Below are positions 3,405 to 62,220 of a stretch of 64,000 nt of DNA, piece after piece (positions within the stretch are counted from its first letter, which is position 1; each line of letters begins with the position of its first letter). This DNA is from Saururus chinensis (taxonomy: Eukaryota; Streptophyta; Magnoliopsida; Piperales; Saururaceae). Position numbers and translations under genes: made by a program. The stretch covers positions 25,155,092-25,219,091 of the forward strand of contig CP141143.1 of the NCBI GenBank assembly GCA_035235625.1, given 5' to 3'. Under the pieces are notes generated by a model. It saw only the letters and a list, made by a program, of their open reading frames with translations, did no database searches and was not told where the DNA came from.

Positions 3405-4730
3405 ATGGATCCTTATATAAATATCGATGGGGAGGAAGAAGAAAGAGTGATATTTGAGGATGAAGACGAAGATAACACTTTTGGACAAGAAGATTTTGTT
3501 TTGGATAATATTATTTCACATGTTGTTAAAACTGTAATTCTTCCTCCCCAAAGGAATGCAATTCATACACATCCAGATCGAGGGGATGAGCTTGTGTATG
3601 ATATGCTAAGTGGGCTAGAGATGATTTGCCATGATTTGTGTAGGATTAATAAGAAATCATCCATGCGATTATGTTGGGAGTTGGAGCAATTGCAATTAAA
3701 TCCTACAAGGCATGTGAAAGTGGCAGAGCAAGTGCAATCATTCTTACAACTATTGGGACATTTTCATGGGCAACGGGTGGTGGGCCATATAATGTCACAT
3801 TCGAATGAAACAGTTAACCGCAATTTGCATAATATTGTGAAGGTGCTTTATAGATGGTCTAGTACATAGATCAAGCCACTTATACCTTTATCCCAAACTC
3901 CTTTATATATTTCAAGTAGTCCTTTATTTCATCCTTGGTATAAAGATTGTGTAGGAGCTATAGATGGCACACATATCAAGGAAAAAGTTTCTCCGAATCT
4001 ACAACAAGCATTTCAAAGTAAAAATCATCAAGTCACACAAAATATTATGGCTATATGTGATTTTAGTATGAGATTTATCTTTGTAGTGGCTGGTTGGGAA
4101 GGGTCAACTCATGACTCTAAGGTGTTAGAAGATGTGCTTTTAAGTCCAGAGAGCTCGGGTTTCCCAAAGTTACCTCCAAATAAATATTTTGTTGTAGATG
4201 TTGAGTATCCAAATAAGAAGGGATTTTTAGGACCCTGTAAAGGTCAGAGATACCATGTTCCTAAATTTCGACAGCGTGGCCCACAAGGAAGAATTGAGAA
4301 GTTTAACTAACTTCATTATTCTCTTCGAAACATTATAGAGAGAACATTTGGTATGTGGAAGGAGAGATGGAAGTCATTTGAAAATATTCCAAAATATCCA
4401 TTTCCTATTCAAGTGAAATTGGTGAGGATTTTAATGGCACTACATAATTTCATTCAAGAACAACATAATGGTGCTACCGACCCTGATCTTCGAGATGTAC
4501 TTTGCACTAGTTGGGAAAATAAAGACGAACATGTAATGAATGAAGTTGAGGGGCAAGTTGAAACACTTGTAGGTCAAGATGATAGGGCAATGTCTACGTT
4601 TCGTGATGAACTTCGAGATGTCATTGGTCACCATTATCAATTACCTCCAATTGGTGCACAACATGGCCGACATCGACATTATGTCAATTATATATTTTTC
4701 TCATATTGTACTAATATATTTTTTTTGTAA
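3405..4730 (+). pseudogene. PIF/Harbinger (HARBI1-type) transposase, two nonsense codons
   Basis: A single 442-codon frame broken by a TAG at 3867-3869 and a TAA at 4308-4310; no frameshift is needed. The family is a DDE-type DNA transposase that cuts and pastes PIF/Harbinger elements, usually with a Myb/SANT-like partner. The N-terminal half has the helix-turn-helix region (ETVNRNLHNIVKVLYRW). Catalytic motifs follow: GAIDGTHI (first Asp); FVVAGWEGSTHDSKVLEDVL; FVVDVEYPNKKGFL (second Asp; the family normally has VDAGYPN, so one residue is changed); and RNIIERTFGMWKERW (Glu). After it come MALHNFIQ and a C-terminal tail. The length matches intact plant Harbinger transposases. The two stops make it inactive unless read through. 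The Myb/SANT-like pseudogene lies upstream on the same strand. Confidence 0.9.
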
Positions 4731-18220: not shown

Positions 18221-19540
18221 AAAATAATTCTTTATGGATTAAATGGGTATATGGGGATTACATTCTCGACTCCTCTATTTGGCATTGTGTTATTCCTTCA
18301 TTTACTTCTTATTCTTGGACATATTCTCTGAATGAGGAATATCACGATGAATTTTATTTATTATAAGATTAATGATAGCAAAGATACCATATTCTAGCTA
18401 GATCCCTGGGTAGAAATAGAAAATTTTACCCTGCATAATTATGGTCAGTGCCTTATTTTTCATATGGGGAGTCATATTTTTGCATATGTTGTTTGATTGA
18501 AGGTCATTAGATGTGGAATTAGTATATTAACATGAGATGTGATCATGTTATTCATACCATTAGTGATAATCTTCTTATTCTTAATCAAGTTGGACATATT
18601 CTCTGAATGAGGAATATCACGATGAATTTTATTTATTATAAGATTAATGATGGCAAAGATACCGTATTCTAGCTAGATCCCTGGGTAGAAATAGAAAATT
18701 TTACCCTCCATAATTATGGTCAGTGCCTTATTTTTCATATGGGGAGTCATATTTTTGCATATGTTGCTTGATTGAAGGTCATTAGATGTGGAATTAGCAT
18801 ATTAACATGAGATGTGATCATGTTATTCATACCATTAGTGATAATCTTCTTATTCTTAATCAAGAAAATTAAGTTAAATGGAAGTCTAGCTCTTCAGGGA
18901 AGTTCTCAACTAAGTCAGTGTACAAGGTGCTCTCTAAACATCATTCAAATCTGAATTAGACGTCCATTGTTTGGTTCAAACATCATATTCCACGTCATTT
19001 ATTTATTGGCTGGTTGATGTTGCATGGTCAGTTACTCACTTTAGACAAGATCCAGGGAATTCAACTTACTAATAGATGTATTCTATGCAAGTTTAAACTT
19101 GAATAGACTCATGGTATTTTCTTCTCTTGCAGTTATTCTAAATGGTTCATGAGTAATATTCTCATATTCTTTAGAGTGGATCTTTCTTGTAATCAAGCTC
19201 AATAGGAGCGCCAACACATCTAGTTTTTTAGTCACTCCATTTCAGACTTAGGTTTGCTTATAAAATTTTTCATGAACTACGCAGTTTACTTCATTTAGAC
19301 AAAGAGAAATAGCCGCATTTCCAGAAATAAATTCACTCATAAGTGACATTTTTATTTGAAGTGTGAAAGGCAAGTTAGAGTTAGTGTATCTGTTAATTCT
19401 TATTTTTTAAAATTGTTGTTGAGTTTCCATTCATAGCTGAAAATGACGTCTGTAACTTTATTAGTTTGTATTCTTGGCTCTTTCTTTCTCTCTTTTTAAT
19501 TAAAATGAGTTTTCTCACCTATTTACCTGATAAATAAAAG
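18221..19540 (+). pseudogene. L1-type LINE, 3' part of ORF2 (zf-RVT region) and tail, degenerate
   Basis: Remnant of the C-terminal part of a non-LTR retrotransposon reverse transcriptase polyprotein. SLWIKWVYGDYILDSSIWH at 18221 is the conserved segment after the RT core, followed by the INDSKDTIF-LDPW motif at about 18370. A later part (about 18910-19200) reads KSSSSGKFSTKSVYKVL, then WFKHHIPRHLFIGWLMLHGQ, LLTLDKIQ, CILCKFKLE and HGIFFSCSYS. That is the zf-RVT pattern with its two CxxC-type pairs and histidine. Several stops and a frame change show it is dead. The T-rich sequence to about 19540 is like the 3' tail of plant L1 copies; no long poly(A) remains. The 5' end is truncated, as usual for LINEs. 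A 275-bp tandem duplication lies within it. Confidence 0.8.
18315..18864 (+). repeat. 275-bp tandem duplication inside the LINE
   Basis: Copy 1 spans 18315-18589 and copy 2 18590-18864, both starting TTGGACATATTCTCTG and ending AATCAAG. They differ at only a few positions (for example ATGATAGC versus ATGATGGC), so the duplication is much younger than the LINE. Confidence 0.92.
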
Positions 19541-21399: not shown

Positions 21400-23894
21400 T
21401 TCTAATCATTGACATGTTTACCAATACGTCGATGATGATGTTGATAGTTAGGAGAATATGAATCATTACCGGCATTGATGCATAGGGGTGCATATTGGTG
21501 TTATACCGAACATTATTAGTGAGACTGACATGTAGGTGATGATACCAGCAAACCTAACTTATTATAGTGTACTCATTATCGGCAAGTTATTGATACGTCG
21601 ATATTGGTATTGATGGCCATCAGCACCAACACCAATGCAATGAGAGGAAAATTGATGATACTTCAGTTCATATTTTCAAAGTAAAGTTTTCACTAATGAT
21701 TTTACTACTAGTGAGGTATATTTTAGTATAAAAGTAAATATCAAAATATATGATGAGAAAATATGTGTGAATAATGGGTAAATGAATCCTAAGTTTGGGC
21801 CTACCAAAAGGGTAGAGGTAAACCATTATATAAGACACTTATTGAAATTGGTGCCTAGTGTCAGTCTGAGCTCCAAGATTGGGCCCTCTTAGTCACGTAG
21901 AGGAGATTCATTATATAAAAATGATCATGGGTTTATGCTCCACAAGGCTTAGGAATTTATTATTTTTAGATCATCTCCTCAAGGCTTGGGAGTTGGTTTA
22001 AATAAGTTAAACCTTTATATAAATCATGAATTCAGCACAGCACAACAAAGGTGCCCTTGGTAATCATATAAAATAGAGAATCTTGACCATCTGGGTCCAT
22101 GAGTCATTATAGGTATTACCTTCATGACATAGATGAAGATGGTTATAGTATTTAGCAAGAGTCCAAAACTACCTTGTTAAGTGGTATATATTTTAAGGAG
22201 TCATGAAGATCTCATTGATGTTGTCTAGACTTTAGTGAATATGTTTACTTTATAATAAAGGTTGATCTTAATATGTCATTATTAGTTTGGTTGTTTTTAT
22301 AATATCTCATTGTAGTTCTTGTTTAGTCATCCCACTAGGTATACAATATACTTAGCACTCATTTGATGTATGTACGTAGGAGCAGTAAAATTCTAGGAAT
22401 GCCTTTTTTATTTCCGCCTGTTACTATTTACGACGCTTATATGAAAACATCGCAAATAATAAGTTGTTTGTGACACTTCTTTGGAAGCGTTGCAAGGAGT
22501 TCTATTTTTTAAAAAAAATATCTAGTATTTGAGACGCTTCAATAGAAGTGTCGCTGATTGATAACTATTTGTGATGTGTATCAAGAAGCTTCGCAAAAAA
22601 GCTTATGGCAGGCAAAATTTTGCCCTCGTCGTTTTATACCCCCCTCCATTTTCCCTCTATGCCCCTCATACATGGCATATTACCGAAGGAATGGGCTCTG
22701 GGTGCCAGAGTTCAGCTTCCTGCCGGATTCTGGCTCCCCCCCTTGCTTTTCTTTTCCGCCATTTCCTTTCTTGCATACTGCCAAGGGGACTCTGGCTCAC
22801 TGCCAGATTCTAGCTCCCCCTCCCCCCTCCCCCCCCCAATTTTCATTTGCAGGTGAAGGAGGGGATTTTATTTTTTTCAGTTATTAGCAACACTTTTAAA
22901 AGAGTCTCTAGTAACAATTTTTATTTTTTTTCCTTCCTCTTCCCGGTCAGTCACCCACTCCCCCCCCCCTCCATTTTCCCTCTCTGACCCCTCCTACCTG
23001 GCATATTACTAGAGGAGCGGGCTTTAGGTACTAGAGTCCGAATTCCAGCTCCGACTCCGCCCCCCCTATTTTTCCTTCTGCCCTTTCCTTTATTCCCAGA
23101 GGAAAGCGCTTTGGGCACCTGAGTATGGCTTGCTGCCAGTATCTGGCTCCCAGGTGGAGGGGATTTTATTTTTTGTTAGTTATTAGCAATGCTTTTAAAA
23201 CCATCACTAATAACCATTTTTATTATTTTTTCCTTATTAGTGATGCTTTTGAAAGCATCTCTAATAATAGTTTTTATTATTATTTTCTTATTAGGGATGC
23301 TTAATTATTTTTATTATTTTTTAAAGTTTTTTATTAGCAACACTTTTGAAAGTGTCACTAATAATATTTTTATTTTTTCTTATTAGCAACGCACAAACAA
23401 ACATCGCTAATAAGGTTTTTAAATTTTTTTATATCATTAACAATTTATTATTAGCTACACTTTATAAAGTGTTGCAAAAAAATTATATTAGTGACACAAA
23501 AAAATGGTGCTAATAGTAGTACTATTAGTGATATTTTTTCATATGAGTCGCTAATTAGCAGTACCGAAGGTACTTGTTGTGACACTTTTTAAGCATCACT
23601 AATAGTAATTAATGACACTTTAAGACTATTAAGTGTTGTTAATAGTCTTTTTTTCTTGTAGTATTTGTATTATAGTTTCTAAATAAGTACATGAGCAATA
23701 CCTTTTTTTTGTTTTATGCTATAGTTTGATTATAGTTAATATGTACTCAGATTTAATATTGGTATGTTCAAAAAGCAAGTGGCTTGCATCACAAGGTATC
23801 TTGACAAATGTTTTAGTTTGATAATGATATTGTATTTCTTGAGATGGTTTTTATATAAAATGACATTAGAAGAACAAAATCTTGGGGTGTAACA
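21400..23894 (+). mobile_element. Diverged LTR-like element related to the 12.2-16 kb one
   Basis: It ends GGGGTGTAACA (23894). The interval before the CACTA-like insert (21400-22390) shares ACCAATACGTCGATG-type words and the ACTAGGTATACAATATACT / ACTGAGTATGTTTGTATACT segment with the element at 12198-15959. The left end was not located, so the start is approximate. A CACTA relative interrupts it at about 22420-23665. Confidence 0.45.
22420..23665. mobile_element. Short diverged relative of the CACTA-like hairpin elements
   Basis: It contains repeated ATTAGCAATGCTTTTAAAA / CATCACTAATAA hairpin units, which are TAGCGACGC-type units decayed mostly at CpG. It also has a perfect palindrome GGCAAAATTTTGCC (22611-22624) and a C-rich block like the GC block of the two large elements. 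The right end reads TTTCTTGTAGTA, a variant of the reverse complement of CACTACAAG. The left end is not recognisable. It has no coding region and appears to be an older or shorter member of the family. Confidence 0.65.
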
Positions 23895-27249: not shown

Positions 27250-28025
27250 GAAAAATTGTATAAATAATAATACTGGCGAATATCGTGTTATCAATAATAC
27301 GCTATAGTTGCATATCGTGTTATCGATAATATGCTATGACAAATATCGTATTATTGTACATGCGATATAGAGAAAAATAAATAACACATCTTGTTGGCAT
27401 ATCATGTTATCGATAACACGTTATGGTGAATATAGTGTTATTGATAATACACTATGACAAATATCATATTATAATATATGTGATCTAGAGAAAAATAAAT
27501 TACACGTCTTGTTGGCATATCGTGTTATCGATAACACGCTATGCCAACATATCGTATTGTCGATAACACGCTATTGCGAATTTCATGTTATTGATAATAC
27601 GCTATAGCAAATATCGTGTTATCAATAACACGCTTTGGCGAATATCGTATTATCGTATATGCGATATAGAGGTTATCGTAACATATTGTATTATCAATAA
27701 CACGCATTGTTGACATATCATGTTATCAATAATACGTTATGGTGGCATATTGTGTTATCGATAATACGCTATGGTGGCATATCGTGTTATCGATAATACA
27801 CTATGGCGAATATCATATTATCAATAATACGTTATGGTGGCATATCATGTTATTGATAATACACTATGGTGGCATATCGTGTTATCGATAATACGCTATG
27901 GCGAATATCGTGTTATCGTATATGCGATATAGAGAATATCATATTATGGGTTGTTGGCTCAAAGAATACATATCGTATTATCAAAAATATGTTTTATTGA
28001 CAAATTGAGTTATCGTATATGTGAT
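27250..28025. repeat. Minisatellite, 32-bp unit with higher-order variants
   Basis: Basic unit of the form GGTGGCATATCGTGTTATCG + ATAATACGCTAT. The 32-bp period is exact between 27741 and 27773. Each unit holds a TTATCGATAA-type palindrome. Longer variants recur with TATGCGATATAGAG inserts (near 27360, 27478, 27655, 27915), giving a higher-order pattern. The array ends at the CACTA-like insertion at 28026, within a copy of the TATATGTGAT word. Confidence 0.88.
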
Positions 28026-28575
28026 CACTACAACACATTACAGTATATGCGTCGCTAATAATACCATAAGCGTCGCTAATGAGTATTAGCGACGCATACA
28101 AAACGTCGCTGCATATGTCGATAAAAATACAGTTGTTATTTCTTATTAGCGACGCTTACAATAAGTGTCGCCAATAGATATTATTAACGACGCATATTAA
28201 GCGTCGCTAATACATTACTATTAGTGACGCTTATCACTAAGCGTCGCTAATAGTTATTTATTAGCGATGCTTAATATACGTCGCTAATGATAAAAAATTT
28301 CAAAAAATAATAAATAAAGTAATAAAAATAAATTTCTAAAAAATGAAATAAAAATTTTATTTTTCTATTAGCGACGCTTATAAACGCGTCGCTAATAATA
28401 AAATTTTTTTTAAAAATAAATAAAATAATAAAAACAAATTTCCAAAAGACACAATAAAAAAATTTATTTTTCTATTAGCGATGCTTTTGTAAGCATCGCT
28501 ATTATGAAATAAAAAAATTAAAAAAAAATAAAAATGAAAAGCATTAGCGACGCTTTTATAAGCGTCGCTAATGTA
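28026..28575. repeat. Left hairpin array of CACTA-like element 1
   Basis: Repeated inverted pairs such as ATTAGCGACGC ... GCGTCGCTAAT with short AT-rich loops (near 28060, 28150, 28190, 28230, 28370, 28480, 28545). Spacers are A/T-rich. Such subterminal repeats are bound by the transposase in characterised CACTA elements; that role is inferred here. Confidence 0.85.
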
Positions 28576-28589
28576 AAATAAAATAAAAA

Positions 28590-29470
28590 AATAATAAAGT
28601 GGGGGCAGCGGAAGACGGAGACTGTGGGCGGAGGGGAGGCGCTGCGGGCAGCTTGAGCAGGGGGAAGGGGGGAGGGGGGACCGGAGTAGAGGGAGATGGG
28701 GAACAGGGCAGGGCAGAGAAGGGGGAGGGGGATGTGGGGCGGCAAGGTGGTGGTTGGCGGTAGACGGAGGTGGAAGTCGGAGGCCGGGGCGAGAGGGGGA
28801 GAGGGGGCTTGTTGGGGGAGGGGGGTAGCCGAGGGAGATGGGGCGGGGCTAGGAGGAGAGGGGGGCGGCTTGGGGAGGGGCGCCACCGGGGAGGTGGGGT
28901 TGGCTAGGAGAGGGGGGCGAACTGGAGGAGAGGGGGCCGGCGGGGGAGGGAGGGTAGGCGGGGAGAAGGGGGTGTGGCTGGGGGGAGGGGGGCGGTGGGG
29001 GGGAGAGGGGGCGGGCGGCTGGGAGAGGGGTGGCTGGGGAGAGGGGTGCAGCTGGGGGAGAGGGGGTGCTGCTGGGGGGGAGGGGGGCCAGCTGCGGAGA
29101 GGGGGCGCAATTGGGGGATGGGGAGTTCTTGGGGGAGGGGGCGCAGGTGGGGAGGGGTGGCTGGGAGGCGGTTGGGAGAGGGGTGGCTGGCTAGGAGGGG
29201 GTGGCTAGGGGTGGGGGGACGGGCTAGGGGGAGAGGGAGAGGGAGAGGGGGGCCGGCTGGGGGAGGGGCGGCACGGTGCAACGGCGGCACAGCGGCAAAA
29301 GGAGAACCGGGGAGAGAGGGGTTTGAGGCGGAGAGGCGGCGGGCAGAGAGGCGGTGGGCGGTGATGCCGCTAGGAAGCAGGCGGCGAAGCAGAGAAAAGG
29401 GGCCTCTCTTTTTATAAGGCGCGAGCGAAATTTCGCCTGCGCACAAAATTTCCTCGAGCGCGAAATTTCA
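28590..29470. repeat. G-rich block with GCGAAATTTCGC palindrome
   Basis: The + strand is dominated by GGGGGAG / GGAGAGGGG runs with many closely spaced G-tracts, a candidate for quadruplex formation. It ends in GC-rich sequence with the perfect palindrome GCGAAATTTCGC (29425-29436) and related GAAATTTC words. The equivalent block in element 2 is around 52020-52760. Open frames across it are compositional artefacts. Confidence 0.75.
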
Positions 29471-29635
29471 CCGCGCCTATTTTCTTAAAAAAAATAGCAA
29501 CGCTCTTAATAAGCATCGCTATTAACAAACGGTAGAGATGCATAACAATATACATCGCTAGCTATAACCTTCTTTAGCGGCACTTCTTTATACGCGTTGC
29601 TAAAGAGAATTTTTTTTCTATTTTTTTCTTCTCTT

Positions 29636-32600
29636 TATCTCTCTCCTCCCCTCTCCTCTCTCTCTCCACCCTCCCCTCTCTCTCCCTCCTCTCTCTCTCT
29701 CTCCTCCCTCTCTCTCCTCTCTCTCCTCCCTCCTTTCCTCCCTCCTCTCTCTCCTCCCTCCTTTCCTCCCTCCTCTCTCTCTCTCTCTCTCTCCTCCCTC
29801 TCTTCCCTCTCTCTCCTCTCTCTCTCTTCCCTCTCTATCCTCCCTCTCTTTGTCATCTCTCTCTCTCCTCCTCCTCCTCTCTCTCTCTCCTCCCTCTCTC
29901 TCTTCCCTTTCTCTTCTCTCTCTCCTCCCTCTCTCTGTCCTCTCTCTCTCCTCCCCCTCTCTTCTCTCTCTCCACCCTCCCCTCTCTCTCTCCCTCCTCT
30001 CTCTCCTCCCTCCTCTCTCTCTTCCCTCTCTCTCCTCCCTCTCTTTGTCCTCTCTCTCCCCCTCTCTGTCCTCTCTCTCTCCTCCCTCTCTCTGCCCCCT
30101 CTCTGTCCTCTCTCTCTCCTCCCTCTCTTTGTCCTCTCTCTCCTCCCTCTCTCTCCTCCTCCTCTCTCTCCCCTCTCTCTCCACCTCTCTCTCTCCTCCT
30201 CCTCTCTCTCCCCTCTCTCTCCACCTTTCTCTCTCCTCTCTCTCCCCTCTCTCTCCACCCCTCTCTCTCCACCTCTCTCTCTCCTCTCTCTCCCCTCTCT
30301 CTCCACCCCTCTCTCTCCTCCCTCTCTTTGTCCTCTCTCTCCTCCTCCTCTCTCTTTCTCCTCCCTCCTCTCTCTCTCACCCCTCTCTCTTCCCTCCCCC
30401 TCTCTCTTCCCCTCCCCCTCTCTCTCTACCCTTCCCCTATCTCTTTCATTTAAATTTAAATTTTTTAAAAAATAGGTAGTAGCGACGCATATCTATATGT
30501 GTCGTTACTATTAAGAGGTAGTAGCAACGCATATAAACATACGTCGCTACTACTGTCAAGTAGTAGCGACGCATATAAACATGTGTTGCTACTACTGTTA
30601 GGTAGTAGCGACACATAGTTCTATGCGTCCCTACTACCTATTTTTTATAATTTTTTTATTTTTTTAAAAATAATTTTTAATTATTTTTTTCTCTTTCTCT
30701 CTCTACCCTCTCTCCTCCTTATCTCTCTCCTCTCTCTCTCTCTTCTCCTCCCTCTCTCTCCTCTCTTCCCTCTCTCTCCCTCCCTAACTCCCCTCCCCTC
30801 TCTCTCCGCTATCACTCTCCTCCCTCTCTCTCCTCTCTCTCTCACTATCCTCTCTCTCTCCTCCCTCTCCCCTCTCTCTCCTCCCTCTCTCTCCCTCTCC
30901 CTCCTCTCTCTCTTCCCTATCCTCTCTCTCTCTTCCCTCCCCTCTCCTCTCTCTTTCCTCCCCCTCTCTCCTCTAATTTAAAATTTTTAAGATTTTTTAT
31001 TCTTTAAAATTAATTTTAAAACATAAAAAAATTAAATAAAAATACTAATAGTGACGTATAGTTCTATATGTCGCTATTAGTACACATATTAGCAATGTAT
31101 ATTTTTATACGTCGCTACTATATGCACTAATAGCGACGTATAATACTATATGTCGCTATTAGTATTTTATTTTTATTTTTATTTTTTTATTTTAAAAATA
31201 AAAAATTAATAAAAATTAAAATAAAATTATTCTCTCTCTTCCCTCCCCTCCCCTCTCCTCTCTCTCTCTTCCCTCCACTCTCCTCTCTCTCTTCCCCCCA
31301 CTCTCTCTTCCCTATCCTCTCTCTCTCTTCCCTCCCCTCTCCTCTCTCTTCCCTACCCCTCTCTCTTCTAATTTCAATTTTTTTTATTTTAAAAATAATT
31401 TTTTAAAAAAATCAAAATAATATTCTTCTCTCTTTTCTCTCCCCTCTTCTCTCTCCCTCTCTTCCCTCCCTATCCCCCTCTCTTCCCTCCTCTCTCTCTC
31501 CTCTCTTTCCCTCTCTCTCTCCCTCTCCTCTCTTTCCCTCTCTCTCCCCCTCTCCTCTCTTTCCCTCCCTCTCTCTCTCTCCCCTCTCCTCTAATTTCAA
31601 TTTTTTATTTTTAAAAATTAATTTTGAAAATAAAAAAATAAAATAAAGTAAATATTAATAGCGACGTATAGGAATATACATCGCTATTAGTATTTTCTTT
31701 TAATTATTTTTTTACTTTAAAAAATAAAAAATTTAAAAACTCAAAATAAAATTCCTCTCCTCTCTCCCTCTCTTCCCTCCCCTATCCCCTCTCTCTTCCC
31801 TCCCCTCTCCTCTCTCTCTCCCTTCTCCTCTCTCTCCCTCTCTCTCTCTTTCTCTCCCTCTCCTCTCTTTCCCTCTCTCTCTCCCTCTCCTCTCTTTCCC
31901 TCCCTCTCTCTCCCCTCTCCTCTTTCCTCTATTTTCAATTTTTTATTTTTAAAAATTAATTTTAAAAATAAAAAAATAAAAAAAGTAAATATTAATAGCG
32001 ACGTATAGGAATATACGTTGTTATTAGTACATGTATTAGCGATATATAGTGTATACATCGCTAATACATGTACTAATAGCGATGCATATTGCTATATGTC
32101 GTTATTAGTATTTTATTTTAATTATTTTTTTACTTTAAAAAATAAAAAAATTAATAAAAAATTTTAAAAACTCAAAATAAAATTCCTCTCACCTTCCCTC
32201 TTTTCCCTCCCCTATCCCCTCTCTTCTCCCTCCCCTCTCCTCTCTCTCCCTCTCCTCTCTTTCCCTCTCTCTCTCCCTCTCCTCTCTTTCCCTCCCTCTC
32301 TCTCTCCCCTCTCCTCTCTCCTCTAATTTCAATTTTTTATTTTTAAAAATTAATTTTGATAATAAAATAAATTAAATACTAATAGCGACATATAGGAATA
32401 TACATCGCTAAAAATATTTACTTTTTTTTATTTTATTTTAAAAATAAAATAATTTATAAAAAAAATTGTAAAAAATTAAAATTATATAATCTCCCTCTCC
32501 CCACTCTCCCTCTCCTCTATCTCTCCCCTCTCCTCTCTCTCTCTCTCTATCTCTCTCCCTCTCCTCTCTATCTCCTCTCTCTCTCTCCTTCTCCTCTCTC

Positions 32601-32736
32601 TCTCCCTCTCCTCTCTCTTCTATCCCCTCTTTCTCTTCTCTCCCTTTCCTCTCTCTTCTATCCCCTCTCCTCTCTCTCTCCCCTCTCCTCTCTCTCTCTC
32701 TCTCTCCCCTCTCTCTACTCTTTCTTCTCTCTCTCT

Positions 32737-32779
<43 letters not shown>

Positions 32780-33080
32780 CCTCTCTATCTCTCCCCTCTC
32801 CTCTCTTTCCCTCTCCTCTCTCTCTCTCTCCATCTCTCTCCCTCTCCTCTCTCTTCCTCTCCTCTCTCTTCTATCCCCTCTCTCCTCTCCCTTTCCTCTC
32901 CCTCTCCTATCTCCTCTCATTCCCTCTCTGTCTCTCTCTTGATCTCCTCTTTCTCCTCTCTCTCCCCTCTCTCTACTCTTCCTCTCTCCTCCCTCTATCC
33001 TCTCTCTCTCCTCACCCTCTCTGTCCTCCATCTCACTCTTCCCTTTCTCTCTCTTCGATCCCTCTCTTCTTTCTCTCTTT
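29636..33080. repeat. Polypyrimidine tracts alternating with hairpin units
   Basis: Near-pure C/T on the + strand over 29636-30447, 30690-30975, 31233-31372, 31422-31592, 31752-31930, 32187-32330 and 32490-33080. Between them lie AT-rich spacers with TAGCGACGTATA...TATACGTCGCTA hairpins. A (CT)n stretch lies near 32740-32776. The repeating module (CT tract, AATTTTTTATTTTTAAAAA spacer, hairpin) suggests growth by segmental duplication. Confidence 0.85.
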
Positions 33081-33084
33081 TATA

Positions 33085-33320
33085 ATAAATTATATTTTAA
33101 AAATAATAAGAAAATTTAAGAAATAAAATATATTATATCTAAATAGTGAAATTTTAATTTACTATTAACACTAATTTTTATTAAAAATTTAATATTTATT
33201 TATTATATATATAAATAGTGAATATTGAATAAAATATATATTATATTTATAAAATTTAAAAAATATTATTTATTAAATAAAATTAATTAATAAATCCATT
33301 CACGACGCTTATAATTGACC
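33085..33320. repeat. AT-rich core shared with CACTA-like element 2
   Basis: Reverse-complement match by eye to 50400-50650, including the ATAAATAGTGAATATTGAAT region. It anchors the two elements as one family in opposite orientation. Confidence 0.7.
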
Positions 33321-33976
33321 GTTGCTATTACAAATACTATTTACAACGCTTATTTAAAGAGGATAAAGAGGAGAGGAGAAAGAGAGGAGAGGGAGAGGGA
33401 GAGAGAGGGGAGAGGGACATTAAATAATTATAATTTTTTTAAGATTTTTTTATAAATTATTTTATTTTAAAAATAAAAAATAAAATAAATACTATTAGCG
33501 ACGTACAACATATATGTCGCTAATAATACAGGTAATAGCGACGTATAGTTCTATACGTCGCTAGTAATTTTTTTTGTTTTAAATTAATAACTAATATTAG
33601 GACTATTAGCAACGCTTGGTCCAAACGTCGCTAATAGTCTTATTATTAGCGTCACCTGTAACTAGCGTCACTAATAGTTGGACTATTAGCGACGCTTGAA
33701 TTAAGCGTCACTAATATTTATGATTTTTTTCTTTTTTAATTAAAATATATATATTTTAGCGACATTTGTATAAAGCGTCATTAATATCATTAGTATTAGT
33801 GACTCTTTATACTAAGTGTCGCTAATACATAACTATTAGCGACGCATATTATTATGTGTCGCTAATAGTTTATTTTTTTGCGAGGATTTTTTATGCGTCG
33901 CAAGTATGGGTTTTTAGCAATGCTTATAGTTATGTCGCTAATAAATACGTCGTTAATACTACATTTTGTTGTAGTG

Positions 33977-37680: not shown

Positions 37681-38848
37681 TCAAACTGCTGTGCCTGCAA
37701 TGAAAGCCAAACTTTGTGAGCAAATGAACCATAAATTTGTCAACAAATATTCTTAGTGGTAAGATCACAGGCATACCAAAATGGCAATCTATGTTGAATA
37801 TGGAGATTAATTACCAGAGTCCCTTGGTGCACTGCATCTGTAGCACTCCATCCTGCTGGCGAAGTTGTGCTCATTGCACCCATTTCTGTCAGCAAAACCA
37901 AAACACCCAGTCATATACTAATGATCATAAGGTGTGTGGTACATTTGCTTAAAGATTAAAGCAAATAGTAATCTCCCACAGTTCATAAGCATGACAAAAA
38001 ATCTGTTTCAGAATGCATGCATGCTTATCATTTTGGCACAAATACATTTAAACAGATGAGAGGGTTAAAAAGTGATGTTGTGAAACTTTCCTTCTTGTCA
38101 AATTGTCACTTGAGAATCTAATCAAGAAAGCAAACAGATAAAGCATGAGATAGAAGCAAATTATCTAATATATCTATCAAGTAGATCCTAAGCTAATGAA
38201 ACAATAATTTACTAAATGAAATCATGGAGACAATCATCCGTCGTATATATCAATCATAAGGAAGCACAGGACATGAACTAAAATTACAGGGTCAAGCACT
38301 AAAGGAAGAGAACTACCATTATGCTGCTTTTACCCACTCCGTCCCATATTTTGTAAAACCAAATAGGCCACTTAATATGGGACAAAGGGATTATATATTA
38401 ACAGCCAATCCAGTGTGCTGGATAGGACCTCTTCAGCAAGAGAGCAGTACATATAACAGAAAAAAGGATTATACCTGGTACAAATCCAGTCACCCGACTT
38501 CCATCCGGTGCGGCCGCCGCCGCCGCCACTGCTGCCAAAGCCGAAGCTGCCTCTGGAACGCGGTGCTTCGTACCCGCCGGCAGATTCGTCTTTGAATGCG
38601 CCACACTTAAAGCAGCTGGAGCGGCTAGCGAAGTTGTGGGCGCCACAGTTGCCGACGGAGCAGTACCAGTCGCCTGGCCGGACATCGGAGCCGCCAAAGC
38701 CGAAGGAGGATCCCCCCCTCCCTCCGAAGGAGCCGTAGTCAACTCTGTCACCGGACCTAGGGTCTCCACACCTCTGGCAGGAATCCCTACGGCTGAAGTT
38801 CAGGTACTGGCATGACCTGCAGTTCCAGTCTCCCGGCTTCCTGTCCAT
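37681..38848 (-). CDS. RanBP2-type zinc-finger protein, 152 aa, three fingers
   Basis: Three coding exons, reconstructed by splice sites: 38848-38475, 37885-37815 and 37694-37681, ending in TGA; phases agree and give 152 codons plus stop. Introns are GT-AG (38474-37886 and 37814-37695). RanBP2-type fingers have the form W-x-C-x(2,4)-C-x(3)-N-x(6)-C-x(2)-C. They lie at residues 7-28 (GDWNCRSCQYLNF...CQRC), 60-82 (GDWYCSVGNCGAHNF...CFKC) and about 120-143. The third is completed only by the splice (GDWICT + RNGCNEHNF...CYRC). Linkers are glycine/serine-rich (GGRGGSSFGFGG, GSFGFGSSGGGGG). Plant relatives of this size are single-stranded RNA-binding nuclear/cytoplasmic proteins; the exact ligand is not shown here. 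The start ATG lies 11 nt into exon 2 and immediately precedes DRKPGDWNC. All finger cysteines are present and no stop or frameshift is seen, so this is the one apparently functional gene in the window. Confidence 0.9.
38336..38391. mobile_element. Tiny Stowaway-like MITE in intron 2 of the zinc-finger gene
   Basis: The left arm ACTCCGTCCCATATT and right arm AATATGGGACAAAGGGA form an inverted repeat (one extra base on the right) around a 23-bp centre. CTCC-GTCCCATATT is the usual Stowaway/mariner MITE terminus. It lies fully inside the intron at 37886-38474. Confidence 0.7.
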
Positions 38849-39356
38849 CTTTCTCTGGCCTAGCAATCCAAGTAAGTGACAACAATATGAGTCATTGCAC
38901 ATAGAAGTAGATAGTATAATAGAACAGAGCTACTTGCTATTCCCCCTTGTTCATACTTCAGCAAGAGTTTGCAAAAGGAAAACAATCATAACAAAATCAA
39001 ACATGTTTGGATATCAATGATCCTGTCAAAAAGACAAAAAATGTTTGGATATCCATGAAACTAGAAGACAAACAAGATCGAACATGTTCAGGGACAAAAA
39101 GCAATCAATTAGGATACTACTACTTCCGCTTCAAATCTTTAAATTAAGGAAAAATCCCGGTGGCAAACAAGAAGACAATCAGGGGCTAATTTCTGTCATT
39201 GCAAAGAACAAAAATGAATTGGGACCAACAGCCAAGTGTTTGAACTTGTTCTTGCGTGAAAAACTTGGGAAGAATAGGGCATATTGGATTAGGTGTAAAA
39301 TTGGATTCCAAGGGTTGAAAGACTTGATCAAACAACATTCAAGCCTAGGGCAATAC

Positions 39357-46960: not shown

Positions 46961-48204
46961 AGTAAATTGTATGTTGTGCATGTGATGTTTATTTTAATGA
47001 TTCCACTTTAGCTTGCCAATTTCATATGAATGTGGAGTGTTTTAAGCTATATTATGCTACTGGAAATGCATGCTATTGAGTTTATGGAGTTGAGATATAT
47101 GCTTAGAGATTTGTGGAATGACTTATGTTTTGTAGCATGATGTTGGAATTGTCATCTTGAAAATTATGAATGGTTGATTTCCTTTGGATTAAGTATATTT
47201 TCAGTAGAACTATAACCTATTATTGGACTGATTTGTCATGATAGAATGTGGTTAGTTGATGTGTGGATGTTGGTGAATGCCATGACTCAAGGATGAAATG
47301 AATAATCTTATATGTGTTTAGCCTTTGTGGTTGAGTTTTCATTTGAGTTATGATTTCAATGATTTTTCTCCTATGATTTCCGCTGGAATTCATGTTTAGA
47401 TAGTAATTCACATGTGTAGTGTGGTAGTAAGTTTAATTTCAAGCATGTTGACATGCATTGTGTGAAATGCTTCTACTAGTTCACACACAAATGTGGGGGT
47501 TATATGATGATGTTGAAGCTTGATATTGTGATTATGAATGATGCATTAGGGGCTGGTGAGAGCACTTATCATGGATTAGGATTCATGTATGCCTTGCCCA
47601 CGTATGTACCATGCTGCATGCATCATGAAAATGGATTTCCAATTGAGGCTTCATCGTAGTTAATCGAATTTGACCGATTGGATGCAATGTGATGAAACTG
47701 TGTGCCAGATTGATCGGTCGTGGATTAATCGCAAGTTGATTGGTCCGAAAGGACATATTTCGATTTGAGTTCCTGTGTGGAACGAGTGCACTCCCCGGGT
47801 TGAGTATAATTAAATGGGATTATGTGGGGACGAGTTGTGTAGTTGTCTTGCAGATTGTGAGAATGTTATTATGAGTGTCATCTGGACCCTGAGAATCCAA
47901 TGTGGTATGTCATGTGCACCCCGCTACCACGTGTTCTAGGGTTCTCTGTGTGAGGACTCAGGCTCTTCCCTCTGCAGGAGATGTCCCTGGGCAAACACCC
48001 CTGCTCTAGATTCTCTGTGTGAGAATGGGACATCTTTGGCCAGGATCGTCCAGGGCGAGCAACATTAGGGATTGACAACCCTGATCTTTCTTTAATTCTT
48101 GTGTAGAATTTTGGATCATGACACGCCTTCGTGGCCTTGTCTATGCTCCCGTCTGTATGACATTAAAGTGTGATTACTCCTTGATGGAGGTTGTGATGAT
48201 ATAA

Positions 48205-48486
48205 TGCATGATGGGAATATGTATGTTAGAGATACATCCATGCAAGTTGATTATGATATGATGCATGTGGGAATATGTATGTTAGAGATACATCCATGCA
48301 GTTTGATTTTGATGTGATGCATGTGGGAATATGTATGTTAGAGATACATCCATGCAGGTTGATTTTGATGTGATGCATGTGGGAATATGTATGTTAGAGA
48401 TACATTCATGCAGGTTGATTATGATGTGATGCATGTAGGAATATGTATGTTAGAGATACATCCATGCAGGTTGATTATGCACTATG
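48205..48486 (+). repeat. 56-bp tandem repeat, about five copies
   Basis: Units start at 48213, 48269, 48325, 48381 and 48437, measured at the GGGAATATG word; exact 56-bp spacing. Each contains ATGTATGTTAGAGATACAT, an imperfect inverted repeat. Confidence 0.95.
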
Positions 48487-50651
48487 ATGCAGTGTTAGGA
48501 GATGTATATGTGTGATCAGAAAATGATGCACCATGTAAATCTTTGATCTGAATGACTATATTGTTATGCTATGGTATTTTCGATGTTGCTAGTGATATAA
48601 TAAAAACCATTGCTGAGTTTGTTAAACTCACCCCTCTTTCTTGTGTTTTGATTTGGGGCTGCGTGGTGCGACATGCAGATGGACAGGATCTCCTCTTTGA
48701 GGAAAGGTCGGAGATGGCTTGGATGTGATCATGGAGATCATTGTGTGACTTATCTTCTTTGGTTTTATGCTTATGTTTAGAACCTTTGTGTAGGGTTCTT
48801 TGTTTTGGATTTATGTCACATTTCACTGTTATGTTTGCTTAAGACTTATTTGAGCCAGGTGGGCTTTAGTTAACTAAGCATGTGGGTTTGAGATTAGTTG
48901 TTTACTTTGTGATAAGCAACACTCTTCTTTCCCTTTTTATTTACTCTTGCTCAAAGGATTGTGCGTACTCCGTATTTCTGTTAATCGCCCGTGGTTAGGG
49001 TTAAGTCTTCTGCTAGATCGTTTCTCAATCTTCCTTCGTCGCCCCCGCGCGCTTGACCGGCCCTTGGACCGGGTTCGGCTCGGGTCGGGCATCACCAGGG
49101 TGTGACAGGCAGAGGGCAGGGGGCGACACTCAAGGATGGAGGAGAGGTGGAGGAGGGCTTTGATGGTCAAATCTATTTGGTGGCAGAGCCATTCGATGGT
49201 CAGGCGGCACGAATGCGACGCCTAAACCCTAAACCACAGTGTGGCTACATGCACATGCGGCCATAGGAGAGGGGGAGAGGGCTGGATGGAGGTGGCTCAA
49301 GGCTCGGAAGGGCAATAGGGCCATGCCCAAGGGTAGTGACCGACAAAGACGGCCTTTGCCATTGCAGTGTCAAGATAGGCTGACTAGAGGCCAATCGATG
49401 TCCGTTGGGGGTAGGATGGTAGTGCTCTAAATAGCGCAGTCAAACACATAACTGATAGAATGGGAGTCTAGCTCATGTAGGACAAAGAGATGTGGTACCA
49501 TGCTAGGCTGGCGACCTAGCCATCTCAAGCTAAAACCGGCTGGAACGAGGTGCTCTTAAGGTCATCCTGCGTCCAAAGGTGCTACGATGGCCCAAAATAG
49601 AAAAATTGCTAGAAAACATAGAGGGGTCGGGGGACACAGGGAGGAGCAAGGGTTTATCAACGATCTAGCCGAATCCGTTGTGACCCTAGTGGCCGATCGG
49701 AGTTGGGTCAGAAAAATTATAAAGTGTTTTTTGGAATATTTCTGCAATGTTTTTTTTATATATGTGATTGCATGTGGATGTGTATTAATTATCTTTAAAC
49801 GGCTATATTATTATCATGGGTTGGCCACGAGATTAAAATATAATCTTATGGTTTATTAATTTTTTAAAACTTGTTGAATGCACCACTTATGTAATTTTGT
49901 GAGAAAGTGTACATTAGACGCATTGTAAGCTTCACCAAAATTCAAAGATCACACTACAACAAAACTGACTATTAGCGACGCATATGCAAGCATCACTAGA
50001 AACAACTACTTGCGACGTAAATAAAAGCATTGCAAAAAATGAACTATTAACGACGCATTTTTTTATGCGTTACTAATAGTCATATATTAGCCACGCTTTA
50101 TAATAAACGTCGCTAATAGTTCCTCTATTTGTGAGGCTTTATACAAACGTCGCTAAAAGATATATATTTTAACTAAAAAAACATGACCATTGGCTAGGCT
50201 TATCACAAGTGTTGTTAATAGTCCTTCTATTAGCGATGCTTATGCACAAGCGTCGCCAATAGTCCTGCTATTAGCAACGCTTGTGAGAAGCATCACTAAT
50301 AGACCTGATATTAGTTATTAATTTAAAATAAAAAAAATTTGATTATTAGCAATGCTTTTAAATAAGCATCATAAATAGCATTCATAATAGCGACGCTTAA
50401 TTACAAGTGTCACAAATAGCTTTATTAATTAATTTTATTTATTAAATAATATATAAAAAATTTTAAAAAAAACTTCCTAAATATAAAATATATATTTTAT
50501 TCAATATTCACTATTTTTATATATGATAAATAAATATTAAATTTTTAATAAAAAGTAATGTTAATAATAGATTAAACTTTCACTATTTATATATAATATA
50601 TTTTATTTCTTAAATTTTTTGATTAGTTTTAAAATATAATTTATTATAAAA

Positions 50652-51812
50652 GAAAGAGAAGAGAGGGATCGAAGAGAGAGGAGAGAGAGTCTAGAGAGAG
50701 GGGAAGGTGAGAGAGTGAGGAGAGAGAGAGAAAGGGAAGAGTGAGATGGAGGAGAGAGAGGGTGAGGAGAGAGAGGGAAGAGAGAGAGAGGAGAGAGAGA
50801 GGGAGAGTGAGGATAGAGAGAGAGGGAGGAGAGAGAGGGAGAGGGAGGAGAGAGGATAGAGAGAGGGAGGAGAGAGGAGGGAGAGGGAGAGAGAGAGAGG
50901 GGGAGGAGAGAGAGGGGGAGAGAGAGTGAGGGAGGAGAGAAAAGAGAGAGAGGGGACGGAAGAGAGAGAGGGAGGAGAGAGAGGGGAGGGAAGAGAGAGA
51001 GGGGGACATTAATTTTATTTTTTTTAAAAGAGTATTAGCGACGTTTACATGTATACGTCGCTAATACTACGGTATATTAGCAATGTATACATGTATAGGT
51101 TGCTAATATAATAGTGTATTAGTGACGTATATCTTTATACATTGCTAATACACTGTAGTATTAGCAACGTATGCACCTATACGTCACTAATGGCTTTTTA
51201 AAATTTAAAAAAATTAAAATTAAAATAGATAGAGAGAGTGAGGAGAGAGAGGATAGGGAAGAGAGCGAGGAGAGGGAAGAGAGATAGAGAGGAGAGGGGG
51301 ATATTAATTTTATTTAAAAAAAGAGTATTATATGTCATGAATACCAGTATTAGCGATGTATACATGTATACGTCGCTAATACAATAGAGTAATAGCAATA
51401 CATATCTTTATACGTCGCTAATACACTATAGTATTAGCGACATATGTAGCTACACGTTGCTAATGGATTTTAAAAATTTTAAAAAAATTAAAATAGATAG
51501 AGAGAGTGAGAAGAGAGAGGAGAGAGGGCAAGGTAGAGAGAGAGAGATGGGAGGGGATATTAATTTTATTTAAAAAAAGAGTATTAGAAACATATACATA
51601 TATACGTAGTTAATACTACGATGTATTTGTGATGTATACATGTATACGTTGCTAATGGCTTTTTAAAATTTTAAAAAAATTAAAATTAAAATAGAGAGAG
51701 AGTGAGGAGAGAGAGGATAGGGGAGAGAGAGGAGAGGGAAGAGAGAGAGTGGGGAGGGTAGAGAGAGAGGGAAGAGAGAGAGAGGGGAGGGAAGAGAGAG
51801 AGAGTAGGGGGG
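50652..51812. repeat. Polypurine tracts with intervening hairpins
   Basis: Near-pure A/G on the + strand in four blocks. Separating spacers read ATTAATTTTATTTAAAAAAA, followed by GAGTATTAGCGACG-type hairpins. This is the reverse complement of the arrangement in element 1, with fewer and shorter tracts. Confidence 0.85.
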
Positions 51813-52449
51813 ATATTAATTTTATTTAAAAAAAAAAGAGTATTAGCGATGTATAATGTCTATGTCGCTACACTACCGTGTATTAGCGACGTATACATCT
51901 ATAAGTCGCTAATACAATAGTGTATTAGGGACGTATAGATTATACGTCGCTGCTATATGTACTAATAGCAACGCTCTCATTGAGTGTCACTAATAATATA
52001 TTTCTAAAAAAATATATATTACACGGGAAAAATTCCGCCCGCGCGGGGAAATTTCATGCACGGGCAAAATTTCCTCACGTGGGCGAAATTTTGCCCACTT
52101 ATAAAATACCCACCCCCCAGTCCCCCTAGCGACTCCCGGTTCCCCGCCAACCGCCCGCCGTCCTCCGGCCCCCACCTCCTCTAGTGCCTTCCCCCCCCCC
52201 CTCATCCCTCCCGGTCCCTCTTCTCCCCTCCGATCCACCCTCCATGGGGACCTGAGGCCGGTGGGGAGGCACCGTCCTCCAGCCCCGCACTCCCTCCTGT
52301 ACCCTCCCCGTTCTCCGCCCCCTTCTCCCCACTGCTCCAGTCCCCCCCTCTCCCCTCTCCCCCTCCCTCCTCCGATTTTCGGAGGGTGGGGTGGGGGGGG
52401 GGGAAGCAGGGGAGTGGAGGGCCGGAGGATGGCACTGCCGTCGCCACCG

Positions 52450-54180
52450 TTGTCCCCTCTCCCTACTCCAGACCCCCTTCCTCTGATTTTCAGAGGAGGG
52501 GCGGAGCCAGGGAGAGGGGGGGCCGGGGGGGGGTGGGGGCCGAGAGGACAGCACCGCCGCTACCTCCCGCTCCTGCCCCCCCCCCCTCCTTCCCTCCCTC
52601 CTCTGATTTTCAGAGGAGAGGCTCTTGGAGGGGGGGGGGGGGGGGGGCAAAGCCGGGGAGAGGGGGAACAGGGAGTGGGGTTGGGTGCTGGAGAACGGTG
52701 CTGTCCTCTCGCTCCCTCTCCCCCTCTCCCTTCCCCGGTGGGCCTGGTGGCCCACCCTAGATTTTTTTAAAAAATAAATTCATCTTTAGCAAGGCTTCTA
52801 TATGTGTCGCTAAATGTTTTTTTAATATTTTAAAATGTATTAGCGACGCTTTAAAAGCGCCGCTATTACATTTAATTTTTTTAATATTATAATATTACCT
52901 ATGTTTGAAATTTTTTAAAAAACATTATTCTATTAGCAACGTATAGAAAAGCGTCGCTAATAACTACTTTTTTAGCGACGCTTACCGTAAACGTCGTAAA
53001 TAAGTTATTTTCAATTTTTAAAAAAAATTAGTATTCTATTAGCGACGTATATAAAAGCATCACTAATAATTTATCATTAGTAATGCTAACAAATAAGCAT
53101 CACTAATAATTATTAGCAACGTATATATGTGTTGCTAATAATCAATTATTAGTGACACATATATATGTGTTGCTAATACTTTTTTGTTATACATCGCAAA
53201 TATGCAATAGCGATGACACTTTTTTTGACGTTTATTATACATCACATATATATGTGTTGCTAATACTTTTCTGTTATACATCGCAAATATGCAATAGCAA
53301 TGACACTTTTTTTGACGTTTATTATACATCGCTAATAGTCATTGTTGTCCCCTCTCCCTACTCCAGACCCCCCTCTTCTAATTTTCAGAGGAGGGGGCGG
53401 AGCGGGGGAGAGGGGGGACCGGGAGTTGGGTGGGGGCTGAGAGGAAGGCACCGCCACGTCCTCCCGCTCCTGCCCCCCTCCTTCCCTCCCTCCTCTGATT
53501 TTCAGAGGGGGTGTGTGTGTGTGGGGGGGGGGGGGGGGGGGGGAAGCGAGGGAAGGAGGGGCAGAGCCGGGGAGAGGGGGGACAGGGAGTGGGGTTGGGT
53601 GCCGGAGAACGTTGATGCGCTGCTGCCGCCCTCTCGCTCCCTCTCCCCCTCTCCCTTCCCCGGTGGGCTTGGTGGCCCATCCTAGATTGTTTTTAAAAAT
53701 AAATTCATCTTTAGCGAGGCTTCTATATTCGTCGCTAAATGCTTTTTTAATATTTTAAAATGTATTAGAGACGCTTTAAAAGCGCCGCTATTACATTTAA
53801 TTTTTTTCAATATTATAATATTACCTACACTTTGAAATTTTTTAAAAAACTTTATTCTATTAGCAACATATAGAAAAGCGTCGCTAATAACTACTTTTTT
53901 AGCGATGCTTACCGTGAACGTCGTTAATAAGTTATTTTTAATTTTTTTAAAAAATTATTATTCTATTAGCGATGTATATAAATGCATCACTAATAATTTA
54001 TCATTAGTGATGCTAACAAATAAGCATCACTAATAATTATTAGCAACGTATATATGCATCACTAATAATTTTCTGTTATACGTCGCAAATATGCAATAGC
54101 AATGACACTTTTTTTTACATTTATTATGCATCGCTAATAGTCATTAGCGACATTTAGTGGACTATTAGTGATGCATAAAT
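52450..54180. repeat. 895-bp tandem duplication in CACTA-like element 2
   Basis: Copy 1 starts at 52450 and copy 2 at 53345, both TTGTCCCCTCTCCCTACTCC. Each runs through a GC/G-rich block (G runs at about 52629-52647 and 53523-53543) into hairpins of the TTTAGCGA-GGCTTCTATAT type. Copy 2 is interrupted by the element's right terminus. Differences are few, mostly in G-run length. Confidence 0.88.
53150..53340. repeat. 87-bp tandem duplication
   Basis: The TGTTATACATCGCAAATATG word recurs at an 87-bp offset (G at 53186 and 53273). The region appears only once in the corresponding part of copy 2 (near 54070), so this small duplication arose after the 895-bp one or was lost from copy 2. Confidence 0.85.
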
Positions 54181-54460
54181 GCGTCACTAATAGTCCTTTT
54201 TGTTGTAGTGTCACAGCTGGAGGCGGATGCAATCATGAATTAACAATGTAACATTTTTTCTCTTTAAGGGGCTTTAGTGCTTCCAACTTGTACAATTTTT
54301 TTAATTCTTTTAAGGAATGTATATAGACTATGGACTATATTTTATTAATTGTGGTGTGTGATGATGGGAACCATGGCCAAATCCCAAAAGCCTGATAACA
54401 CAATTGATAAAAATGCCCTTGTTAATTTTGTGTATGCATACTTTTTGATTGTTTGATAAT

Positions 54461-61208: not shown

Positions 61209-62220
61209 TAGAAAATAGTATACTAACCCCTCAATTTTCTCAATTGAATAACTTTCTCAATAGATGAAATTCATAGCAAAAACTTATATAAATAAAAAGT
61301 AAATAGAAAGAGCTTCGAAATGCCACTAAGAAAGTGTAGATCAAAATTCAAAAAAGGGAGATATGACTAATTAAAGTTAAATATATTGCGCAGGGCCCGT
61401 TTATACGAATTAGACATATAATTGGACTATTTAGTGTGCTTTGTTGGCCTAGTTAATTGAAGTAATAAAAATTATAAATAATAGCCTAATTAGATAACCT
61501 AGTAAGGGTATTTGGTCTAACTTTTAAGGGGATTAGGAACCCTAATCTACATGATTATAAAAATGTTATATAGGGCTTCGTTAGGGAGAGTTTTAGCTTC
61601 GATGAGAGAAGCCATTGGGGAAGTTTCCTACAAGTGTGCAACGTGTTGTAGTGGAAGACTAACCCATCCTAAGATCTTATCGAAATACACAATATACGTC
61701 CTTTGTGTAAAAACAAATAACAGAAGGTAAAAGAGATTAATTGACCATCTTAGTCTAACACAACACCTACAAAATCTATAACGAACATAGTCACAAACCC
61801 TAATGCTACAACATGTCTAAAACCATCACATACTATTTAAAGTATAAAATAAAGTCAAATTTAAGATCATCATATCATATGACAAGTCTAAAACAACTCA
61901 AATGTCTAGCCCCCTTTCATGATACATGCCTATCATCAAACTCAACATAAAGAATATTTAAAGTACCTGTATAATACAACATACAGCTCCAAAATAAAAC
62001 TACTACAAAAAAAAATGCTTAGCATAATAAGGGTTTTAAAAAAATATATAAGCTCTTGATAGTACCACATATATTCTCAATTTAAACATACATTACGTAT
62101 CCATTCTATATACACATCCACACCACATATATTTATTCATAATTTATAATCACATATACACCCTATATAATTATTTAAACTTTATAATTCATTCGCATCC
62201 TCCATCAAGCAATATCAATA
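61209..62220. other. Unassigned AT-rich DNA
   Basis: No gene recognised; no repeat structure seen beyond A/T-rich runs. Confidence 0.35.

Follow-up and report, generated by a model that had tools for sequence, protein, structure and literature searches.

What kind of element could fill nearly 6 kb of plant DNA with short inverted motifs and pyrimidine tracts while leaving no room for a protein? This question is raised by positions 28026–33976 of the window (the whole 64,000-nucleotide stretch of Saururus chinensis DNA analyzed here), a segment designated E1. E1 belongs to a real and abundant family of non-autonomous CACTA elements, one that has diversified and whose interior is unusual. Very probably, it is a non-autonomous DNA transposon of the CACTA (En/Spm) type that carries a lattice of short motifs, depends on a TNP2 transposase supplied in trans, has grown by duplication of internal modules and retains the remnant 5' part of a gene.

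E1 is complete (5951 bp). It is assigned to the minus strand, which is the purine-tract strand of the family. Terminal CACTACAACA starts at 28026, and terminal TGTTGTAGTG ends at 33976, both exact. The terminal inverted repeats (TIRs) thus begin with CACTA and read CACTACAACA at both ends, in E1 as well as in E2, a second complete member (49952–54210, plus strand). The motif TAGCGACG, allowing at most one mismatch, occurs 56 times in E1 (mean 2.0 and maximum 5 across 30 order-1 Markov sequences) and 12 times in the rest of the window once E1 and E2 are excluded (53,790 bp). These ends and motifs bear out the CACTA-like assignment made in the original prediction and, in keeping with its statement that the segment encodes no protein, no recognizable one was found. 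All 43 stop-to-stop frames of at least 60 amino acids (aa) in E1 are of simple composition (amino-acid entropy below 3.6 bits). Among five of these frames compared with Pfam, four had no match and the fifth stayed below the cut-off (PFF1_TM, 18.7 vs. 32.3 bits); nine frames from E1 and E2 yielded no domain above the cut-off. No frame for a TNP2 transposase is present in E1, judged by the entropy of the 43 frames and by Pfam on five, and E1 is therefore non-autonomous.

On the left side of the window, E1 opens with an end array composed of the TIR, alternately inverted TAGCGACG motifs and A/T spacers (28026–28590). Next to it lies a GC-rich module of about 0.9 kb with a TATA box (28577–29477, core 76–78% GC). 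Its parts are read on the minus strand: a near-palindrome AGGCGAAATTTCGCTC with two degenerate AAATTT/GCG copies (29423–29475) stands immediately upstream of the TATA box TATAAAAA (29409–29416), and the GC-rich stretch downstream (28577–29408) holds no ATG frame of at least 50 aa after the TATA box. Seven CT tracts of the plus strand follow, summing to 2352 bp, in line with the predicted total of over 2 kb. Tract 1 (838 bp, 29610–30447) is separated from tract 2 (30684–30974) by an array of four inverted motif pairs (30473–30636), and tract 2 from tract 3 (31230–31369) by three inverted pairs with a 41-bp repeat (31043–31164). Beyond tract 4 (31423–31592) come an inverted pair (31645–31700), tract 5 (31752–31930), a motif array (31996–32107), tract 6 (32183–32324), a further inverted pair (32383–32410) and tract 7 (592 bp, 32490–33081). 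An A/T-rich spacer and the other end array with its TIR complete the element (33082–33976). The earlier description of E1 as made almost wholly of hairpins and tracts is thus apt for the motif arrays and the tracts, but it omits the GC-rich module.

E2 (4259 bp) is oriented opposite to E1, carries AG tracts and is flanked by a perfect TCA/TCA duplication; its TATAAAAT (52100, plus strand) is preceded by GGGCGAAATTTTGCCC. Two parts of E1 match E2, namely 32706–33358 (80% over 674 bp) and 33566–33943 (73% over 379 bp).

The family was then counted in the host genome (516,460,831 bases in 11 contigs), with reversed patterns as controls. CACTACAACA was found 6102 times against 1761 for the control, so about three in ten of these places may be due to chance. 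The TIR joined to the first motif was found 1173 times (586 + 587; control 0), and the inverted motif pair 5750 times (control 3). The 100 listed CACTACAACA places span C1:1-18.44 Mb on contig C1, and each plus place was paired by eye with the next minus place; the remaining listed places had no partner. Seventeen pairs were studied: 15 under 6 kb, one of 7.4 kb and one of 10.7 kb, so that 16 were below 10 kb. Motif arrays (19–74 motifs) were present in 14 of the 17 end pairs, in 13 of them together with tracts. The proposed search for ends plus motif arrays therefore does recover a family, and E2 and these relatives refute the suspicion that the tracts are a single-copy accident. Perfect 3-bp duplications flank 11 of the 15 relatives fetched first. 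Among the remaining forms, one motif-bearing element has no tracts (L022, 1363 bp), L015 is a 362-bp miniature with eight motifs, L011 may have a second left end, 509 bp further in, and the pairing of L063 with L064 is due to chance. L062 (C1:1383025-1390510) has the TIR and a perfect ATG duplication, with only three motifs and no array. The 1173 exact ends amount to hundreds of natural arrays on which lattice binding, end pairing and the effect of site number could be tested; for annotation, kilobases of hairpin-plus-CT DNA are explained as a transposon.

By the accepted view, CACTA ends are recognized by a protein with many short binding motifs in the subterminal regions. Across 17 elements, the inverted pairs of TAGCGACG number 421, and of 505 neighboring motifs no more than 30 bp apart, 466 alternate in orientation and 39 share it. 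The modal start-to-start distances between neighbors are 20 and 21 bp. Alternation at a step of about 20–21 bp means that each "hairpin" consists of two adjoining half-sites. Three elements that carry a TNP2 gene show their strongest periodicity at 20.6 bp, with a vector length of 0.78.

At least 152 matches to PF02992 (TNP2) are present in the genome. The best 20 of these form six groups above 80% identity, and the 6 kb upstream was read for one member of each. Among the members so read, a motif array lies upstream only in that of the L027 group, to which 10 of the 20 belong. Three of these ten were examined, and all three start with CACTACAACA followed by an array. One of them, C10:4105730-4121125 (15,396 bp), has both ends and an ACA/ACA duplication. 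Its motifs are concentrated near the ends: 37 lie within the first 1.1 kb and 31 within the last 0.9 kb, against one in the sequence between. Its transposase frame (a candidate gene, known from its domains) combines Transpos_assoc and Transposase_21. DUF4218 is found in the members on C7 and C1, and DUF4216 in the member on C7; downstream of these two members, 7 and 9 kb of sequence, respectively, yielded no 3' array. A candidate for the autonomous partner that had been suggested as a check, namely a TNP2 element sharing the left end and the motif arrays, thus exists in the genome, and E1 is presumably moved in trans by a related TNP2 element.

A further TNP2 gene, L026, has upstream of it a stretch (L046) with a CACTACAACAAAAAGA end like that of L062 and two TAGCGACG motifs, and with repeats of TTGTTGCAAA instead. 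L062 and L046 share the CACTACAACAAAAAGA end without a TAGCGACG array, so the same TIR is accompanied by different subterminal motifs.

The following mechanism is the most likely one. TAGCGACG half-sites in alternating orientation, one every 20–21 bp (about two helical turns), form a lattice at both ends and, unusually, in the interior. A DNA-binding protein encoded by an element, either in the role of TNPA/TNP1 or as the associated domain of the transposase, would coat this lattice along one face of the DNA and pair the two element ends. TNP2 transposase, acting in trans, would then cut at CACTA, which would give the 3-bp target duplication. The interior has expanded through repeated duplication of a module comprising tract, spacer and motifs, and tract length probably shifts by slippage and unequal exchange.

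The interior follows a fixed order. In all 15 tract-bearing elements (E1, E2 and 13 from C1), with the tracts read as purines, the TIR and a motif array are followed by two to seven tracts split by A/T spacers and motif arrays, then by the GC-rich module, a motif array and the TIR. A short tract of opposite polarity occurs in two of the 15: a single 62-bp purine stretch in E1 and 122 bp in L023. Five additional loci, the top five non-self among 18 matches to the promoter region of E1 (the closest 79% over about 100 bp), agree without exception: each has a TATA box at the match, preceded on the same strand by purine tracts and followed by a GC-rich stretch. The tracts number 65, with a median of 207 bp, a maximum of 838 bp and 96.8% purine. 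Among 50 tract-to-tract modules, 14 have their nearest relative within their own element (2.9 expected) and the rest have it in other elements, which supports the predicted modularity and internal amplification; module duplication looks old as well as continuing.

Could the tracts themselves have a function? They might be nucleosome-poor, bind GAGA factors (BPC) or form triplexes, and thereby open the promoter-like box described below or assist transposition. BPC proteins bind GAGA-type DNA, and GAGAGAG is the commonest 7-mer of the tracts. The constant order relative to polarity, in the 15 elements and the five further loci, also favors such a role, although common descent accounts for the polarity. 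Tract length is greater where CpG loss, taken as age, is lower (rho 0.55, p 0.035, n = 15): younger copies hold more tract, which suggests that tracts move along with the element and erode later. Against a function, tract impurity (2–4.5%) is near the purine-to-pyrimidine rate of 2.2% at non-CpG motif positions and is unrelated to CpG loss (rho −0.10), a weak test since the tract finder selects pure stretches. Triplex formation, which the original prediction had suggested, is not supported: the longest mirror arms hardly exceed Markov controls (14.6 vs. 13.2) and, of 26 tracts drawn from five elements for this test, only 14 lie above control, and mirror repeats were rejected as an explanation for want of a clear excess. 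Moreover, tracts are absent from the 6-kb stretches upstream of six TNP2 genes and from the whole 15.4-kb element on C10. A 346-bp CT tract with GC-rich DNA lies 0.7 kb outside the left end of the latter (L053:969-1314), perhaps in a neighboring tract-bearing element. A functional role of the tracts is therefore considered rather improbable.

It is less likely still that the inverted motifs have been retained because they fold into hairpins, as cruciform DNA or as structured RNA yielding small RNAs, and that such folding is the purpose of the element. Long imperfect inverted repeats do exist (103-nt arms, 78% complementary), and pairing in the inner stem exceeds that of shuffled units at the first two positions (0.76 vs. 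0.51 and 0.74 vs. 0.56; 12-nt loops, 229 units). However, a few palindromic founder types (TATA/TATA, CTTA/TAAG, CATA/TATG) would yield the same excess, and the reverse pairing is also seen, in 181 R-F neighbors. If pairing were important, changes in one arm would be expected to have counterparts in the other. With at most two mismatches per arm and no joint limit, 56 positions are changed in both arms, against 51.9 expected (442 pairs). The earlier count of 421 pairs gave a similar outcome, with a joint limit of three mismatches that trims doubly changed pairs. Under a looser limit of three mismatches per arm, both-arm changes reach 110 against 94.3 expected (522 pairs), a modest excess located at motif positions 1, 2, 5 and 6. 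CpG transitions, a mark of cytosine methylation, make up 448 of the 616 changes (73%). Near-independent mutation of the arms together with this decay is what would be expected of methylated protein-binding sites and not of selected hairpins, so a reading of the hairpin as the working unit is not supported.

The part of the interior most worth testing is the promoter-like box shared by this noncoding family. A palindrome GGGCGAAATTTCGCCC, followed 3–7 bp further on by a TATA-like box and then by the GC stretch, scores at least 18 of 23 in 11 of the 17 elements, and the TATA-like box is TATAAA in eight of these 11. The maximum in composition shuffles (10 per element) is 17. The opposite strand also scores 18–20 in eight of the 17 elements, always below the tract-purine strand, because the box is palindromic. 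In an alignment of 13 elements, which were selected by box score and so favor the box, pairwise identity reaches 0.75 over the palindrome and TATA and drops to about 0.5 downstream (windows with all 78 pairs comparable). For the sequence GGCGAAATTTCGCC, the genome contains 89 sites, against none for the reversed control; within C1:1-18.44 Mb, all four of its sites fall within sampled elements (L010, L013, L017 and L018). GGGCGAAATTTCGCCC presumably resembles paired E2F sites. A noncoding family can thus diversify heavily yet keep one tract polarity and one promoter-like box.

The GC-rich module downstream of the box might instead consist of host exons captured by a Pack-type carrier and expressed from a captured promoter. 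In most elements the module has 70–80% GC with the TATA box in place and reads toward the nearer end, and L023, L016, E2 and L010, four of the nine elements examined, have one or two post-TATA frames of 53–116 aa. The other five (L013, L017, L018, L012 and E1) have no ATG frame of at least 50 aa after the TATA box, and they include three of the four elements with the least CpG loss. Between L013 and L017, mismatches are spread evenly over the three phases (35/34/29) and six of nine indels are not multiples of three. Pfam gave no match for seven frames of the GC-rich part (three from E1, four from E2). A coding GC module was rejected on the basis of the few frames and the flat mismatch phase. 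The module of E2 has 66 matches, mostly of 66–80% identity, which makes it a member of a dispersed family, neither a single gene nor a recent capture. Capture of host exons is accordingly held to be very unlikely. The palindrome–TATA unit and its GC stretch most likely descend from a transposon gene that has lost its body and kept its 5' part, namely promoter and untranslated leader. In maize Spm, a GC-rich first exon, the downstream control region, follows the promoter, and the GC-rich part of the E1 family is assumed to resemble it; no description of the Spm downstream control region was found in the open-licence literature.

Several observations weigh against the interpretation of E1 as a trans-mobilized CACTA transposon with a 5' gene relic. 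The triplets flanking E1 itself, GAT/AAT, form an imperfect 3-bp duplication. Compared with the TNP2 elements, the noncoding ones show a fainter motif periodicity (0.40, the best value, at 19.55 bp; 0.38 at 20.5 bp). The right TIR of the C10 element deviates (CACTATAAGAAAA). No strong similarity connects the E-type elements with the three TNP2 elements, whose compared part ran from the left TIR up to the transposase domain: blastn gave 692 rows, with a best score of 85 bits, and the 40 best rows all fall within motif-bearing parts. For want of strong internal similarity, the E-type elements were rejected as simple deletion derivatives (dSpm-like) of the three sampled TNP2 elements. At L061 (C1:30535500-30540499), taken as an ordinary palindrome site, the palindrome and the GC-rich stretch precede the last tract; the box there can be duplicated or displaced. 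Finally, no coding element with the promoter box was found, where just one palindrome near a TNP2 gene (on C2) was inspected and the remaining palindrome sites were compared with TNP2 genes by eye from listed coordinates only.

The C2 palindrome, 11 kb from the TNP2 gene, was considered as part of a coding sibling and rejected: it lies inside L060, a noncoding element in its own right (5917 bp, flanked by a TTA/TTA duplication) that conforms to the family layout.

A bolder conjecture, possible but doubtful, is that this high-copy lineage abandoned protein coding and multiplied in the form of noncoding elements equipped with a promoter. The private box GGGCGAAATTTCGCCC, 3–7 bp before the TATA box, would be fed by the purine tracts and by a phased transposase lattice along the whole element. 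Transcription from the box, in S phase if E2F-driven, could aid mobilization or rewire neighboring genes.

An assembly or slippage artefact has a negligible probability: low-complexity tracts are generally difficult to assemble, but the window contains no N, the sequences of the modules between the tracts are distinct, and the same layout recurs at 15 loci (13 on C1, E1 and E2) plus five more, many unlinked and many with target duplications, which argues against assembly error as the source of the architecture and leaves exact tract lengths as assembled.

Among known systems, maize En/Spm and its noncoding dSpm derivatives have CACTA ends, 3-bp duplications and subterminal repeats in two orientations, and the derivatives are mobilized in trans by TNPD(TNP2) and TNPA, according to the available part of the source (PMC2613891). 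The E1 family shares these ends and two-orientation repeats and, in E2 and many relatives, the duplications. It differs in that the En/Spm motif described there has 12 bp and another sequence (PMC2613891), and in that the motif arrays of the E1 family run through the interior between purine tracts. In the same available text, soybean Tgmt* has subterminal direct and inverted motifs with 14 potential stem-loops, thought to be read by a DNA-binding protein. The motif of Tgmt*/Tgm1 is TTGGCAG/AATCTTACAG, the border repeats lie within 159 bp and 732 bp, and the element is coding and 20.5 kb long; tracts such as those of the E1 family are not mentioned in that part of the text (PMC2613891).

Chenopodium Jozin, in the accessible part of its description, has a TNP2 gene with TAD, Transposase_21, DUF4218 and DUF4216 and 19–23 copies of a 12-bp sub-TIR motif (PMC8978399). 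This domain layout and the sub-TIR arrays are like those of the TNP2 relatives found here. Some Jozin elements of C. quinoa have captured a tandem array near the 3' end, which is a 171-bp satellite, in contrast to the purine tracts alternating with binding-site arrays in the E1 family (PMC8978399). Sunflower Tetu1 and other noncoding CACTA elements are, like the E1 family, noncoding and defined by subterminal repeats, and cross-mobilization by the transposase of other families has been proposed for them; tract modules and a palindrome–TATA box are not mentioned in the portion of that article at hand (PMC7139988).

No description of purine-tract modules or of a palindrome–TATA box in CACTA elements was found in the open-licence literature, as far as its accessible text goes. 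No open-licence paper was found for CACTACAACA together with CACTA and subterminal, and the papers listed for TAGCGACG are all unrelated by title. The CACTA superfamily and stem-loop subterminal arrays are known, and the polar tract modules and the shared promoter-like box are under-described. To speak of an under-described element class, as the original prediction did, is too strong, since such stem-loop arrays were already reported in the consulted part of PMC2613891; the description suits the tract modules and the box.

Other traces of the family occur in the window. A decayed stretch (22424–23660), in which the same inverted motifs alternate with GC/CT-rich segments without intact ends, is probably a broken third relative of E1 and E2. 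A third TGTTGTAGTG at 61644 was rejected as an element end; it has no adjoining motif array and is probably due to chance. Within E2, a GC-rich and array-bearing segment of about 0.8 kb is tandemly duplicated at 52449–54145 (83% identity over 832 bp), and an 88-bp repeat is found at 53156–53330 (97.7%). Both are internal duplications within the same family. A different palindromic unit, close to ATATCGTGTTATCGATAATACGCTATGG, is tandemly arrayed at 27280–27947, with periods of 32, 95, 118 and 127 bp. These arrays stop about 80 bp short of the left end of E1 and are a repeat of their own; E1 was inserted either within this repeat or next to it.

Elsewhere in the window, three adjacent frames at 3405–4727 resemble, judged by eye, pieces of a PIF/Harbinger-type transposase. 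A minus-strand frame at 38375–38929 encodes RanBP-type zinc fingers (PF00641, E 5e-10) and is likely a host gene. Near-identical tandem repeats are found at 18315–18864 (a 275-bp unit in two copies, 98%) and at 48184–48491 (a 56-bp unit in 5.5 copies, 92%).

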